Below are positions 18,363-23,761 of a stretch of DNA of 40,896 bases, one piece after another. The notes under the pieces were generated by a model that saw nothing but the letters and a program-made list of their open reading frames with translations, was not told the origin of the DNA and did not search any database. Location: NCBI GenBank assembly GCA_013335175.1, contig JAAXWC010000012.1, forward strand, positions 1 to 40,896, in the 5' to 3' direction. This DNA comes from Candidatus Roizmanbacteria bacterium. GTDB lineage: Bacteria > Patescibacteriota > Microgenomatia > UBA1406 > GWC2-37-13. Both the position numbers and the translations under genes were made by a program. Position 1 is the stretch's first letter. Each line of letters begins with the position of its first letter.

Positions 18363-18761
18363 TCAGCGGATTAATACCCGTTTTGCATGTCCATGAATAA
18401 CTTTGATTGTGTAATGCGACCTTTTTAGCATAAGTAACGCAAACGTTGCAAGCCATCTCCACGCAGATGAAACGGGTTTGTGAAGCCCTTTTACAATCTC
18501 TTCATCTGATAACGGGATATTGAGTGGATCGGGCGGTGTGGCTGCACTTGGATGAATTTCAACCCCGGCTTTTTTTACTTCTACAGGGATTTCGGGAACT
18601 TCCTTTTTTACTTCGACATAATTATTTACTGGCGGGACAGAATACTCAACAGCGGGTGTCTGTTCTGTAGTTGAAATTGGTCCTGCCTCAGGAAAAGACG
18701 TGGATTGCTGTTGTGATTGAGAAATGAGGTCGTCAATAGGAGTATAGTTTGGTTCAGGCAT
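18363..18761 (-). CDS. Hypothetical protein with Pro/Glu-rich N-terminus
   Basis: 132 aa from the ATG at 18761. Longer frames start upstream, but TATAAT (18769-18774) ends 7 nt before this codon. Residues 1-80 are low-complexity, rich in Pro, Glu, Val and Thr. The last 50, beginning PLSDEEIVKGLHKPVSS, look folded, with a weakly hydrophobic WRWLATFALLML stretch and a basic end. No function is recognised. It follows the riboswitch-linked gene by 27 nt but has its own promoter. Confidence 0.65.
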   Translation of the reverse strand: MPEPNYTPIDDLISQSQQQSTSFPEAGPISTTEQTPAVEYSVPPVNNYVEVKKEVPEIPVEVKKAGVEIHPSAATPPDPLNIPLSDEEIVKGLHKPVSSAWRWLATFALLMLKRSHYTIKVIHGHAKRVLIR

Positions 18762-18788
18762 AGTATTCATTATAAACACAAATAATCG

Positions 18789-20120
18789 CTATTTACAGGT
18801 GGCTTTTAATCCACACCCCGGGCATTGTTTTGTTCCTGCTCCCACTATAATAATATGTGAACATTTCGGGCAATGAAAATGTGATTTATGACATTCACCA
18901 CACTTACAAGGGCTATCATTTGGATCAACAGGTTCTATCGCATATCCAGCATTTTGAAGAGCAGTTTTTCCTAAACCAATAATACGTGATGGCTCTTGTT
19001 GTTCTAATGGATTATAGTCAAACATATCAGAAAAACCAGTATTTCCCCCACAACTGGTAAAAAAATTTGTAATTTTCTCTTCATACCAATCTAAATGTTG
19101 CATCATCCCTGCATATGAAAAGTTATAAACAGTGGAGGCAAACTCCTGAAGTTGCTGCAAATCTTGTTTTATATGGAGAATATCCTTGCCTAGAATCAGA
19201 TTCTTGAGAGTATTCTCCCACGTACGCCATTCTTTCAAAATACGTTCGCTCCTCTCATTCGGATTCATGAGAAGGGTATAGACGTTGTGTAAAATGGGGC
19301 GTGCCACCTTTAAGTATTCTTCCATAAGTTCATCGGTGGTTTGATAGGGATCATCTTCAAGTGGGCGGATTTTTCGTTCCTCTGGTGTTGCTTCATACAA
19401 TCCTCGAATGAGCTGGTCGATTTGCTTAGTTTCTCTTTTATTTCGGATATCGGTAATAGGATACCGTTCGGTATCAAGTGGCGTTACAAAACCTAAAAGA
19501 TTCCCTTGAGGCGGATTTTTGCCAGTAAGCAGAGTAAAAAGCTCTTCTTGAGCTTGTGGATCGAGATAATGTATAAATGCTTTCAGTTCTGAACGCGGAG
19601 TTCCATCAATAGAAACTACCTGATGCACACGGAGAAAACTATAGTTACTAAATCCTTTTTCTCGCAATTCTTCAATATTATTCATTTGTTCGAATACGGC
19701 GGGGCTAAACTCAACAAAGATCTTTTGCATTTGGCCGGTTTGAAGAATGTTTTGAATTTCTTTTTGGAGTTGATGTGTTACAGAAAGATCGTATTTAGCT
19801 CGGTCTCGATACCACGCTGGAAATGTTGGATTGTCAATTACTTTCTGGGAAGAATCCTCAGCGAGTTCATCGTTGAAAAATGTGAGCTTTACGGTACCAT
19901 CTTCACGATTTTGTATTCCTTGGTGGTACGTTGAGCTGGATACTTTTCCAAACATCTCACTCGCTCCAGACTCAGCTTGTTTGTAGAAGAACTCACGATA
20001 GGCTTCTTGCTCTCTGAGAGCTCGCTTCCATTCAAGGTTTAAATCGAAGGAAAGTGGCGTTTTTTGTTGTTCATCTTGTGTTTCGGGATACGAAACACAC
20101 TCACACATAGGTGGTACCAT
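18789..20120 (-). CDS. Unknown zinc-ribbon protein downstream of cobalamin riboswitch
   Basis: 443 aa with no signal peptide or membrane helix; I do not recognise the main body. Residues 1-400 are mostly polar and helical, with acidic stretches and many Gln. The last 40 hold eight Cys (405, 407, 410, 417, 420, 433, 436, 442), including CPKC and CPGC pairs, and several His, a double zinc-ribbon-like tail. The start codon lies 27 nt after the P1 stem of a cobalamin riboswitch on the same strand, so the gene is probably controlled by B12. A second ATG at 20108 is possible. Neighbours are the adenosyltransferase and nrdJ. It may serve corrinoid capture, B12 sparing or RNR function; none is shown. 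Confidence 0.8.
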   Translation of the reverse strand: MVPPMCECVSYPETQDEQQKTPLSFDLNLEWKRALREQEAYREFFYKQAESGASEMFGKVSSSTYHQGIQNREDGTVKLTFFNDELAEDSSQKVIDNPTFPAWYRDRAKYDLSVTHQLQKEIQNILQTGQMQKIFVEFSPAVFEQMNNIEELREKGFSNYSFLRVHQVVSIDGTPRSELKAFIHYLDPQAQEELFTLLTGKNPPQGNLLGFVTPLDTERYPITDIRNKRETKQIDQLIRGLYEATPEERKIRPLEDDPYQTTDELMEEYLKVARPILHNVYTLLMNPNERSERILKEWRTWENTLKNLILGKDILHIKQDLQQLQEFASTVYNFSYAGMMQHLDWYEEKITNFFTSCGGNTGFSDMFDYNPLEQQEPSRIIGLGKTALQNAGYAIEPVDPNDSPCKCGECHKSHFHCPKCSHIIIVGAGTKQCPGCGLKATCK

Positions 20121-20147
20121 AGAGTGTTCTGCACGGAAAAATAGCGT

Positions 20148-20292
20148 CTTGGTCGGTCTTCGGACTTACCTAACACAAGTGTTAGGCTTACCGCTGCGGC
20201 ACAGTCGCCGATTTGCACGGCGTTCCCAATAATCTCTCAACATGAAAGGTACCTTCCCACCCCCTGGAGAGGAGGCAGTGGTACAAACCAAG
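20148..20292 (-). promoter_or_regulatory. Cobalamin riboswitch with rearranged peripheral hairpin
   Basis: Read on the minus strand, CUUGGU (20287-20292) pairs with ACCAAG (20148-20153) as P1. The core has GGGAAC, a GCCG-UGCAAAU-CGGC hairpin, GACUGUGCCGCAGCGGUAA and the B12 box AAGUCCGAAGACCGACC (20151-20167), matching the conserved cobalamin aptamer. The ACUG/UGGGAA hairpin (20248-20284), normally placed between GGUAA and the B12 box, lies here near the 5' end. In its usual place is a plain CCUAACAC/GUGUUAGG hairpin. The start codon of the next gene is 27 nt downstream, without a clear terminator, so translational control is more likely than attenuation. Confidence 0.9.
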
Positions 20293-20306: not shown

Positions 20307-20837
20307 TTACTTTATAACGATCTCTTCTTTTTCTTCATAGGTTCTTGCGAGTATAAAAAAAAGATCAGATAATCGGTTTAAATACTGCATAATACCTGCT
20401 GCTTTATCTTCAGTAGCCACTTTTTTCGTATGAAATAGCGATACCACTTTTCGCTCACTTTTTCGTGTCAAAGTACGAATTACATGAAAAAGAGAAGAAA
20501 TTTCACCTCCTTGCGGAAGGATAAAATGAGTCAGTTCCGGGAGATTGAACTCTGCTGTATCAATGAACTGTTCAAATTGTTTCACCTGAACGGCCAAACT
20601 TTCTATAGGTTTATTGTAGCCTGCCAAAACACTCATTATTTCATACAAAGAAGACTGAATATTGGTTAATAATCGAATATCTTCTTTCTTCGTCAATTTG
20701 GCAATGGCAAGACCAATAAAACTAGAAAGTTCATCAAGAGAACCGTATGCTTCTACCTGAATATCGTCTTTTTCTATGGAAACTCCTCCAAATAGTGAGG
20801 TAGTTCCCGTATCCCCTTTTTTTGTGTAAATACTCAT
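20307..20837 (-). CDS. PduO-type ATP:cob(I)alamin adenosyltransferase
   Basis: 176 aa from the ATG at 20837. The frame continues upstream, but the extension would lie in a hairpin between genes. Motifs: TKKGDTGTTSLFGG (ATP loop), VEAYGSLDELSSFIG, and RTLTRKSERKVVSL, all typical of the PduO/CobA2 family. The trimeric enzyme moves the adenosyl group of ATP onto cob(I)alamin and makes the coenzyme that NrdJ needs. It lies 66 nt after nrdJ on the same strand, so the two are probably expressed together. No corrin-ring synthesis genes are seen, which fits salvage. Confidence 0.95.
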   Translation of the reverse strand: MSIYTKKGDTGTTSLFGGVSIEKDDIQVEAYGSLDELSSFIGLAIAKLTKKEDIRLLTNIQSSLYEIMSVLAGYNKPIESLAVQVKQFEQFIDTAEFNLPELTHFILPQGGEISSLFHVIRTLTRKSERKVVSLFHTKKVATEDKAAGIMQYLNRLSDLFFILARTYEEKEEIVIK

Positions 20838-20849
20838 AAGTAACAAATT

Positions 20850-20888
20850 GGCAGCCAACGATTTCGCGAGTAAAAATCGTTGACTGCC
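20850..20888 (-). other. Long hairpin between nrdJ and the adenosyltransferase
   Basis: A 15-bp inverted repeat (minus strand GGCAGTCAACGATTT / AAATCGTTGGCTGCC, one G-U pair) with a 9-nt loop. It ends 12 nt before the adenosyltransferase ATG and has no run of U. It could stabilise the nrdJ message end, attenuate readthrough, or control translation. Confidence 0.75.
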
Positions 20889-20902
20889 CACTATTATTCA
20901 AC

Positions 20903-23263
20903 TTAACATTCAGAATACCCGCATCCATAACACTTTTTACATCCCTCTTCATGAGCAAGGAGTGCCTCTCCACATTTTGAGCAGATATCAAACAGCGCTC
21001 GTTTTTCTACAGGCTCTTCCTGAAGAAGACTCGGCTGCATCATCTCACTCACAAGTTCAGGATCTTCCTTTGTGTGTCCGTTGGTAGATGCTTGTTTTTG
21101 GGCATTGAGTTCAAAGTGCATTTTCAACACTTTTGCGACGGCGTCAGGAAGACTTTTAATACGGTCTTTCCCAAATCCCATAGGTCGTGCGCCCCCTATT
21201 CCTTCCAACTGACTCATAATTTCCTTTATTCGTACTTCTGGTTTCAGGTGTGATGCAAATCGCAACGAGAGCGAGATCATTCGTCCTAAGCCTTCTGCTA
21301 CGGCATATACATCGGTTCCAGCTTTACCTACGTTAATAAATACTTCCAAAGGATCGTTATTTCCGTTGGTATTAATAGTAATAAATGCAGTTCCAACTGG
21401 TGTTTGAATTTTATAGGTCGAACCATGTACCACCATCGGTCTTGGTTTTACGTTTTGTACAGGTGTAGAAATTTCTTTTGCCGTTTCTTCTGGTTTCTTT
21501 TCTTCAATACGGGAAAGTACTCCCATTCGAGAACCATCTCGCATATACGTAATACCTTTTAATCCAAGTTTGTAGGCCATGGTATACAAATCCCGAACAT
21601 CTTCAACTGTGTGGGTATTTGGTGCGTTTACCGTTTTAGAGATAGAGGCGTCTACATATTTTTGAATAACGGCCTGTACTTTTATATGATCTTCAGGAGA
21701 AAGTTCGTTTGCTCCTACAAACCATTCCGGCTTTTGTACTTTTTCTTCCGCATGCTTTTCCACCCATTCTTCATATAAATGATGACGGATAACGTGTTCT
21801 CCAATACGATCTCGACGTACAAATTCAAATTCGTACACCGGTTCAATTCCGGAAGTGGTATTTGCCATCAACGAGGTTGATCCTGTAGGAGCCTGCATCA
21901 AAAGGAGCGAGTTTCGTATCCCATTTTTTTTAATATTTGCCCGAACATCAATTGGGAGCTGTTGGATAAAGAGGCCTTTTGAATAGAGATCTGCATCAAA
22001 TTTTTTAAATGCACCCTTTTCTCGTGAAGCTTCAATAGATGCTCGATAGGCTTCATCTCGAATAATTTTATACACTTTTTCAATAAATACGAGTGATTCT
22101 TCTGATCCGTAGCGCAAATGAAGTTTGATAAGTGCGTCTCCAAGGCCCATGGTGCCCAATCCGAGTCTTCGTTCTCCTTCAAGTTGCGATTTACGAATCT
22201 CTTCAAATACATAGGGATCCATATCAATAACATTATCCTGAAGACGAACCGCAGTTCGCACTGTTTTTTTGAGTGCTTCAAAATCAAACTCTCCCTTTTC
22301 ATCGATATCAGACGATTTCACGAGAGCAGAAAGATTAATAGATCCTAAGTTACAGACTCCCCAATCGGGAAGTCCTTCTTCTCCACAGGGATTGGTGCAG
22401 TTAATCCGATTCCAGTACCAGTTATTGTAGAGCTTGTTGTATCGTTCCATGAATACAAGTCCAGGTTCTGCCGATTGCCAGGCTGCCTTTGCAATAAGAT
22501 CCCACAAAGCACGCGCTTTCACAATTTTATGAACATTTACCTTTTTCCCCATTTCTTTCCATTTCACCAAATCTCCAGTCCATTTTTCGTCATATTCTGG
22601 ATCGTCAACATCTGGGAAAACGAGAGGCCAATCAACATCTTGCTCAACGGCTTCCATAAAAGAATCCGATACACAAACAGAGAGATTAGCGCCTTGTATG
22701 CGAGTTAAGTCTTGTTTTACTGTAATAAATTCTTCAATATCTGGATGCCAGTCCCACATCATAAGCATAAGGGCTCCTCGACGAGATCCTCCTTGCTGAA
22801 TAATGTCTCGGGTAGCTACAGAAAAAAGTTCTGCCCAATTAATAGGACCGGAAGAAAAGCCATTTACTTTACGAACTCGAGCACCTCGTGGGCGAAGAGA
22901 AGAGATGTTAAATCCAACTCCTCCACCTCTCGACATAATTTCAACCATCTGTTTTAACGTTTCAAGAATTCCTCCTCGAGAGTCTTTTGGTGAAGGGATA
23001 ACAAAGCAGTTGTAATAACTTACCTCAAACCCTGTCCCGGCACCTGCAAGAATACGTCCACCTGGAACATATTTAAAGTCTTTCATAGCTTCATAAAACT
23101 CTTTTTCCCATTTTTGCTGATCCGATTTTTTCTCCTGAAGAGCTACTGCTTTCGCTACTCGTTTCCACATTTCTTCTGGCGTTTTTTCCAGAGCTACCCC
23201 TTCTTTGTTTTTCAGAGAGTATCGATCGAGAAAGACCTTTTCGGAAATACCTTTAAGTTTCAT
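20903..23263 (-). CDS. nrdJ: Adenosylcobalamin-dependent ribonucleotide reductase (class II)
   Basis: 786 aa class II RNR, reducing ribonucleotides to deoxyribonucleotides by a thiyl radical made from adenosylcobalamin; no NrdB subunit or oxygen is needed. Seen: PGGRILAGAG near residue 67, YNCFVIPSP with the first redox Cys, SRGGGVGFNIS, the loop NCTNPCGEEGLPDWGVCNLGSINL with the NPCGE active-site motif, and APTGSTS. The C-terminal tail has CSKCGEALLAHEEGC and CYGCGYSEC, a zinc-ribbon-like redox tail. No intein is present. nrdR lies 48 nt upstream, the adenosyltransferase follows. Confidence 0.97.
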   Translation of the reverse strand: MKLKGISEKVFLDRYSLKNKEGVALEKTPEEMWKRVAKAVALQEKKSDQQKWEKEFYEAMKDFKYVPGGRILAGAGTGFEVSYYNCFVIPSPKDSRGGILETLKQMVEIMSRGGGVGFNISSLRPRGARVRKVNGFSSGPINWAELFSVATRDIIQQGGSRRGALMLMMWDWHPDIEEFITVKQDLTRIQGANLSVCVSDSFMEAVEQDVDWPLVFPDVDDPEYDEKWTGDLVKWKEMGKKVNVHKIVKARALWDLIAKAAWQSAEPGLVFMERYNKLYNNWYWNRINCTNPCGEEGLPDWGVCNLGSINLSALVKSSDIDEKGEFDFEALKKTVRTAVRLQDNVIDMDPYVFEEIRKSQLEGERRLGLGTMGLGDALIKLHLRYGSEESLVFIEKVYKIIRDEAYRASIEASREKGAFKKFDADLYSKGLFIQQLPIDVRANIKKNGIRNSLLLMQAPTGSTSLMANTTSGIEPVYEFEFVRRDRIGEHVIRHHLYEEWVEKHAEEKVQKPEWFVGANELSPEDHIKVQAVIQKYVDASISKTVNAPNTHTVEDVRDLYTMAYKLGLKGITYMRDGSRMGVLSRIEEKKPEETAKEISTPVQNVKPRPMVVHGSTYKIQTPVGTAFITINTNGNNDPLEVFINVGKAGTDVYAVAEGLGRMISLSLRFASHLKPEVRIKEIMSQLEGIGGARPMGFGKDRIKSLPDAVAKVLKMHFELNAQKQASTNGHTKEDPELVSEMMQPSLLQEEPVEKRALFDICSKCGEALLAHEEGCKKCYGCGYSEC

Positions 23264-23311: not shown

Positions 23312-23761
23312 TTATTTTTGCAATTTTTTAACTTCTTTCCCGAAGTCCTCTACGTCAACAAAACGACGGAACACCGATGCAAAGCGAATATATGCTACTT
23401 TATCCAATTCTTTTAAACGGTTTGCCACCATGTCGCCAATAGTATTACTTTCAATCTCCCCCTTATCGCTCCCACTTGCCTGTATCTCAATCTCAGAGAC
23501 AATCAATTCAATCTGCGTTGGTGAAACCGTTGTTTTCTCGACGGCGTGCAAAATGCCATTTCGTAATTTTTCCCGACTAAATCGCTCCCGTCGCTTATCT
23601 CGTTTCGTCACAAAAAGCGGTAGTTCCTCAGTCCGTTCGTACGTGGTAAATCTCTTTTGGCATTGAGGACACTGTCTTCTTCTTCGAATGGCGGTGCCAT
23701 CTTCAGTTATGCGCGTCTCAATAACCTCTGTGTCAGTATGTTTACAAAAATAACAATGCAT
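23312..23761 (-). CDS. nrdR: Transcriptional repressor NrdR
   Basis: 149 aa, standard length. The zinc ribbon uses C3, C6, C31 and C34 (MHCYFC, CPQC), followed by RFTTYER and an ATP-cone domain with VTKRDKRRERFSREKL. NrdR senses ATP/dATP and represses RNR genes. It precedes nrdJ in the same direction, so it likely controls that gene and perhaps itself: a perfect inverted repeat overlaps its start codon. Confidence 0.97.
   Translation of the reverse strand: MHCYFCKHTDTEVIETRITEDGTAIRRRRQCPQCQKRFTTYERTEELPLFVTKRDKRRERFSREKLRNGILHAVEKTTVSPTQIELIVSEIEIQASGSDKGEIESNTIGDMVANRLKELDKVAYIRFASVFRRFVDVEDFGKEVKKLQK

Follow-up and report, generated by a model that had tools for sequence, protein, structure and literature searches.

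In the contig JAAXWC010000012.1 of Candidatus Roizmanbacteria bacterium (Patescibacteriota; Microgenomatia; UBA1406; assembly GCA_013335175.1), analysed here over positions 1 to 40,896 (the window), a cobalamin riboswitch lies directly ahead of a gene for a soluble protein of 443 amino acids (aa), and this gene probably helps the cells to obtain or use vitamin B12. Relatives of the protein are the main target of cobalamin riboswitches in the order to which the window's genome belongs, where 59 of the 63 other riboswitches with a readable first gene precede one single-linkage protein family. Judged from its genomic context, the 443-aa gene is part of a B12-scarcity regulon in bacteria that depend on NrdJ, the adenosylcobalamin-dependent (class II) ribonucleotide reductase (RNR). 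The elements of the locus that carry this finding are as follows.

20134..20271, minus strand: cobalamin riboswitch aptamer (RF00174, 54.9 bits, full model 1-189)
18789..20120, minus strand: gene for the 443-aa soluble protein, a likely divergent member of the riboswitch-linked family (open reading frame, ORF, and family comparison)
19560..19937, minus strand: part of the body that is predicted best, residues 62-187 (model confidence; conserved R107 and S139-P140)
18792..18908, minus strand: predicted C-terminal zinc ribbon, residues 405-443, with 8 Cys (conserved Cys columns)

The riboswitch and the start of the gene

An earlier reading of this DNA from its letters alone (the sequence-only reading) had placed the gene under B12 control, and the RF00174 match bears this out (gathering score 31.5; E 4.3e-11). 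The same element also matches AdoCbl-II (20146-20243, minus strand, 34.4 bits), below the cut-off of that model. The gap between the riboswitch and the start codon is 13 nucleotides (nt), so that a separate promoter, which the sequence-only reading had named as an argument against itself, does not fit there. In cobalamin riboswitches of this class, the ligand shuts the gene off. A kissing loop of L5 and L13 over the start region is a feature that we take to be typical of the RF00174 class, and in the window leader GUGCCG can pair with UGGUAC at the start codon. A conserved pairing of this kind over the start codon was unsupported in a comparison of 56 leaders (length 4.39, versus 4.74 in shuffles).

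Genes behind the riboswitches of the order and the class

RF00174 matches were found in 64 of 83 genomes of the order (Roizmanbacteria kin), one in each except for two in G078. The first gene was read behind the 64 riboswitches outside the window, whose own riboswitch was left out of the count; one of them (L076) ends with its contig, which leaves the 63. A script shifted start codons to positions behind the riboswitch, and G052 (L099), found by its protein and not by RF00174, was added by hand outside the 63 with a riboswitch placed by eye. The remaining four riboswitches precede a sister cluster (two), a DUF4430 protein (one) and metE (one). The metE riboswitch (L035, G078:C12) is the strongest cobalamin riboswitch, at 98.7 bits, and is found on a 4-kilobase (kb) contig of G078 that may be a contaminant.

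Across the class, 176 of 372 genomes have riboswitch matches. A sample of 60 regions (61 riboswitches) outside the order, mostly the best-scoring matches and not all of them, gave 59 readable cases: 44 precede the linked family set, and the other 15 precede DUF4430-type proteins (4), long proteins of about 550-830 aa (8) or uninterpretable sequence (3). The long proteins resemble the family by eye in one stretch, and kinship was unsupported in profile comparison (best E 0.0022). When the ribbons are removed, the bodies of 102 sequences, including the class set, link at E<1e-3, with groups of 76 and 19 at 1e-5; L048, the nearest kin of the window protein, is unlinked in this clustering. Directly behind the family gene of G377 there is a match to a group I intron (67.8 bits; L230 2988-3174, minus strand).

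Extent of the family and membership of the window protein

A protein search of 57 related genomes returned three homologues besides the window's own. Two have an RF00174 riboswitch directly upstream; ahead of the start codon of the third, a B12-box-like stretch and a terminator-like hairpin can be seen by eye, and Rfam reports no riboswitch there even at E up to 1. Profile A2, built from 58 of 64 riboswitch loci and the window (six open or off-family loci were omitted), matches 68 of the 83 genomes, one of them (G008) by the ribbon only, and the family is thus counted in 67. A riboswitch of RF00174 or RF01689 (E<=1e-3) is likewise found in 68. Family and riboswitch occur together in 62 genomes, the family only in 5, the riboswitch only in 6 and neither in 10 (Fisher p 6.6e-6), a co-occurrence that is biased toward the link because A2 derives from riboswitch loci. 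In two of the family-only genomes (G022 and G037) the gene is at a contig end, two others (G036 and G038) have very weak AdoCbl-II matches in the right place (22.4 and 22.9 bits) and the fifth (G064) has no riboswitch match.

A search with one common ribbon type in 187 genomes of the class is a less biased entry to the family. It gave 10 family ORFs: a cobalamin-riboswitch match, in several cases below the family cut-off, lies upstream of six, and two come directly behind pduO; L178 and L179 have neither in the flanking DNA examined. In these genomes that ribbon type is confined to family ORFs except for one weak match (L185). A role of the ribbon as a genome-wide tag was considered and rejected, the window ribbon having one other weak match (E 0.15) in its own genome. 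Family matches at E<=1e-3 were obtained for 25 of 379 genomes of the wider phylum. Those outside the class are short and ribbon-sided; among the ones opened, L207 and L209 are DnaJ and L214 is ambiguous, so such matches give no case for extending the family beyond the class. The phages and viral contigs searched contained no relative of the window protein.

The window protein itself is probably a distant member. With the body alone, a secure link exists to a single other genome (L048, 7e-11), and profile comparison of the window protein and L048 with groups c1 and c4 is weak (E 0.025 and 0.0064, respectively). Profile A4, built without the window from 66 of 70 members of c0, c1 and c3 (without L079, L080, L082 and L160; none of c2, c4 or the singletons), finds the window protein at 1.2e-9 over positions 218-369, ribbon included. 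Besides the riboswitch directly upstream, the window gene shares its locus order with the family, and in G046 the order nrdJ-pduO-riboswitch-gene-ORF2-thioredoxin is identical. The window protein is likely a divergent family member, given the position of its gene, the riboswitch, its type of ribbon and the R/SP motif.

Composition, ribbon and predicted fold

The sequence-only reading had described a soluble protein with eight Cys near its end and without a recognisable family, and composition, hydropathy and database searches agree. The last 40 residues hold 8 of the 11 Cys (C405, 407, 410, 417, 420, 433, 436 and 442). The maximum 19-residue hydropathy is 0.82, and the window protein is therefore without a membrane segment. 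For its body, searches of Pfam, NCBIfam, PHROGs and the sequences of the PDB gave no family; a DUF4430 domain is absent, as is any RNR large-subunit or NRDD match in Pfam and NCBIfam. Two CxxC-type pairs (C417/C420 and C433/C436) are at ribbon spacing, and in an alignment of 59 rows C417 and C420 are invariant, with C433, C436 and C442 present in at least 90%. No Pfam ribbon scores above its cut-off in the window protein, the zinc ribbon being a prediction from Cys spacing. In the body, the same alignment has an invariant R107, and S139 and P140 in at least 90% of rows. The 32 members of the largest clade conserve PVS..Y, ER.G, YSPPG, Y..GQLY and a single Cys in GSCGG, together with the ribbon and a further Cys at its end.

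Family proteins span 250-509 aa. Among the 91 complete members of c0-c4, the last 70 residues always contain four or more Cys; a small-C-[GPS] site lies before the C-terminal end in 86, and Cys occurs among the last 3 residues in 55. By hydropathy, 90 of the 91 have no membrane-like or signal-peptide-like stretch, and the family protein is, by its composition, predicted to be cytosolic.

The AlphaFold2 model of the window protein has a predicted local distance difference test (pLDDT) score of 57.9 and is poor outside residues 40-200; residues 62-187, with strands, helices, R107 and the S139-P140 motif, are mostly at 70-89. The model of the L092 homologue is good (pLDDT 86.7). Fold searches with the two models gave no clear structural relative, and Foldseek none at E<0.001. 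PAS-like folds top the structure lists at background level, the best matches being at a VIA Z of 5.3 (root-mean-square deviation 3.1, 83 aligned) for the window protein and, elsewhere, at 5.8 (4.2, 96 aligned). Family libraries run on all members gave the zinc ribbon and scattered weak matches only, and PDB profile searches with the family gave zinc ribbons only. One PDB profile match to a mite allergen that is a cysteine protease (0.0066) was absent with profile A3 and was dropped.

Divergence of the body and exchange of ribbons

The family protein has diverged far more than its neighbours. In 25 genome pairs from 9 genomes, the median identity is 71.5% for NrdJ and 23.4% for the family protein, and in 80 pairs from 24 genomes it is 56% for thioredoxin, 44% for PduO, 36% for ORF2 and 24.6% for the family protein, as compared with 22.7% (median) when the family sequences are shuffled and realigned. 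The divergence of the family protein is near saturated. Bodies that are 50-60% identical may carry unrelated ribbons, as in L074 and L092 (bodies 57% identical, ribbons 6/22) and in L060 and L069 (bodies 52%, ribbons 6/32), and the same ribbon types, by our own sorting, recur on distant bodies. By these comparisons, the zinc-ribbon type is exchanged between bodies, which suggests that the chemistry of a metal-thiolate end may be needed and not one given sequence.

B12 use and the neighbouring genes

On the minus strand of the window, the order is nrdR, nrdJ, pduO, riboswitch, 443-aa gene and ORF2, and a thioredoxin gene faces the string. The genes that flank the riboswitch-gene unit include nrdJ and the adenosyltransferase, as the sequence-only reading had it, as well as nrdR.

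23312..23761, minus strand: nrdR (family-library match)
20903..23263, minus strand: nrdJ, class II (adenosylcobalamin-dependent) ribonucleotide reductase (TIGR02504, 577 bits)
20307..20837, minus strand: pduO-type cob(I)alamin adenosyltransferase (PF01923, 164 bits)
18363..18779, minus strand: ORF2, a conserved 138-aa protein (ORF; without Pfam match)

The pduO frame is listed from a GTG at 20891, and its likely start is the ATG at 20837. Between the nrdJ stop and this start there is a terminator-like hairpin of 16 base pairs (20850-20888, minus strand), given which pduO and the genes downstream may be transcribed separately from nrdJ.

NrdJ is found in 75 of the 83 genomes of the order and NrdD in one (no separate search was made for class I RNR), which makes B12 a bottleneck. 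Homologues in genomes with no B12 use, which would have told against a link to B12, were not encountered: the family-positive genomes without a NrdJ match are incomplete (73-85%; G009, G013, G021, G024, G060 and G064) or, in G037, have the locus broken by a contig end. The expectation that homologues always sit beside nrdJ or a cobalamin riboswitch held largely for the riboswitch; adjacency to nrdJ is common but not constant. In the short stretches of 65 riboswitch loci, nrdJ and/or pduO are in view in at least 28, and in G016, G017, G076 and G077 the riboswitch-gene unit and nrdJ-pduO are on different contigs. The riboswitch, not nrdJ adjacency, is the constant feature of family loci.

In 33 of the 65 loci, ORF2 follows; it is about 140 aa long and conserved toward its C-terminus (RWLA...LK.IHG...RV). 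The gene ahead of it is pduO, DUF6580 or the family gene, and a thioredoxin gene faces it. Where the family gene is solitary (the same four genomes and others), ORF2 remains with pduO or DUF6580.

Two further observations concern NrdJ. In G003, G031, G058, G061 and G079, long in-frame insertions interrupt it near model position 281, with a further insertion at position 153 in G003 (open frames of 1141-1594 aa); the insertions look like inteins. In G014 (C5:17138-20246), NrdJ fragments broken by stops follow a further AdoCbl-II match (41.9 bits) and may be the decayed remains of a second, B12-controlled nrdJ.

The DUF4430-DUF6580 pair

DUF4430 occurs in 25 of the 83 genomes with 26 matches, all of which lie at most 3 kb from nrdJ or a cobalamin riboswitch (coordinates compared by eye), often followed by a DUF6580 membrane protein. 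The window genome has such a pair on contig C46, 29 nt behind an AdoCbl-II match that is sub-threshold (32.0 bits; cut-off 36.5). In G334 and G377, riboswitch, DUF4430, DUF6580, a second riboswitch and the family gene follow in a row, and G061, G067 and G072 lack the family and have a riboswitch ahead of DUF4430. DUF4430 is also described as the C-terminal part of vertebrate transcobalamins (PMC4350170). From these neighbourhoods, it is plausible that DUF4430-DUF6580 is a B12-uptake module. Our literature search found no paper on DUF6580.

Possible roles of the protein

Co-control with the putative uptake pair, the pduO/nrdJ neighbourhood and the cytosolic composition lead us to favour, with a confidence just short of even, a protein that acquires or handles cobalamin inside the cell, upstream of PduO and NrdJ. 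By the class of its riboswitch, the gene would be switched off by cobalamin and the protein made at low B12. The DUF4430-DUF6580 pair would take up corrinoid, and the cytoplasmic protein would receive, hold or reduce it and hand it to the PduO adenosyltransferase and NrdJ. In such a scheme, the SPxG-type conserved domain could bind cargo or a partner, and thiols or a docking knob could come from the metal-thiolate ribbon at the C-terminus and the single conserved Cys (small-C-[GPS]).

Several points weigh against such a role. No match in fold or sequence was found to a B12-binding protein, reductase or chaperone, and divergence this fast is unusual in a housekeeping cofactor chaperone. G004 and G034, which are 98-99% complete, have NrdJ and neither family nor riboswitch, so that the protein is dispensable for B12 use; and in several genomes DUF4430-DUF6580 is part of the nrdJ-pduO string and no separate riboswitch was detected for it, so that the pair is not always co-controlled. 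A more specific version is doubtful: a cobalamin-handling protein whose body drifts almost without limit and whose metal-binding tail can be swapped as a cassette, with every kind of zinc ribbon serving if the thiolate end is present.

The sequence-only reading had proposed a new player either in corrinoid salvage or in saving RNR function when B12 is scarce. The link to B12 is strongly supported by relatives across the class behind cobalamin riboswitches or pduO, and the proposal as a whole is supported in part. A B12-sparing or RNR-protecting factor, which at low B12 would bind NrdJ, NrdR or the replication machinery and slow the use of deoxynucleoside triphosphates or keep NrdJ reducible, strikes us as rather unlikely. 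It would account for the Cys-rich ribbon end, which is much like the C-terminal tail of NrdJ and often ends in Cys as the window's NrdJ does, for the hits of family profiles to NrdJ tails in G057 (4.9e-5) and G177 (8.1e-4), for the adjacency of nrdR, nrdJ and pduO in many loci and for NrdJ being almost the sole RNR found. However, DnaJ zinc fingers are matched as well, which may make the resemblance to the NrdJ tail a generic one. Shared control with DUF4430-DUF6580 suggests uptake, and the gene is distant from nrdJ in some genomes.

The near-saturated body beside a well-conserved NrdJ, and the swapping of ribbon types between bodies of 50-60% identity, could also reflect diversifying pressure on an outward-acting, effector-like protein, by which an epibiont short of B12 would draw on its host. 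The long proteins of other composition that the riboswitch precedes in some genomes are in keeping with this, but the lack of signal-peptide-like or membrane segments in 90 of 91 members, cysteine-rich zinc ribbons that fit the cytoplasm and the fact that no adjoining secretion genes were seen make it improbable. That the gene is an ordinary orphan preceded by chance, with ORF2 or nothing as the true riboswitch target, is very improbable: ORF2 does follow in about half of the loci, but solitary family genes keep the riboswitch while ORF2 stays with pduO or DUF6580, and nearly all readable riboswitches have the family directly behind them.

Relation to known systems and significance

Regulons of cobalamin riboswitches are well known. 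The present one resembles those of RF00174, RF01482 and RF01689 in having the same aptamer classes ahead of probable B12-uptake genes, and in one contig metE, and differs in that its main target is a family that searches of Pfam, NCBIfam, PHROGs and PDB sequences do not recognise. With DUF4430 proteins, the family shares the regulon and often the locus, but these proteins are short with a hydrophobic N-terminus, whereas the family protein has neither a DUF4430 match nor a membrane segment. With NrdJ, it shares a Cys-rich ribbon at the very C-terminus, but not the RNR barrel, and the likeness is short and extends to DnaJ fingers. PAS/GAF-like sensor folds resemble the domain that is predicted best in how strands and helices follow one another, at Z values far under the level of kinship.

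A literature search, outside which most subscription journals and preprints fell, found no paper on cobalamin riboswitches in these bacteria and no account in which this family is the principal riboswitch target of a candidate-phyla-radiation class; the available parts of PMC10409787, PMC4350170 and PMC11665869 do not treat the family.

To make DNA precursors, these bacteria rely on B12, which they presumably take from others, and a B12-switched gene that is kept through much of a class marks how the cells cope with shortage. Riboswitch, putative uptake pair and a binding test offer a direct way to study how bacteria of the candidate phyla radiation depend on cofactors. If the more specific version of the cobalamin-handling role, with a drifting body and an exchangeable tail, is true, the family protein would be the intracellular arm of an undescribed B12 acquisition system, comprising DUF4430, DUF6580, the family protein, PduO and NrdJ, and would serve ultrasmall, probably host-dependent bacteria throughout a class.
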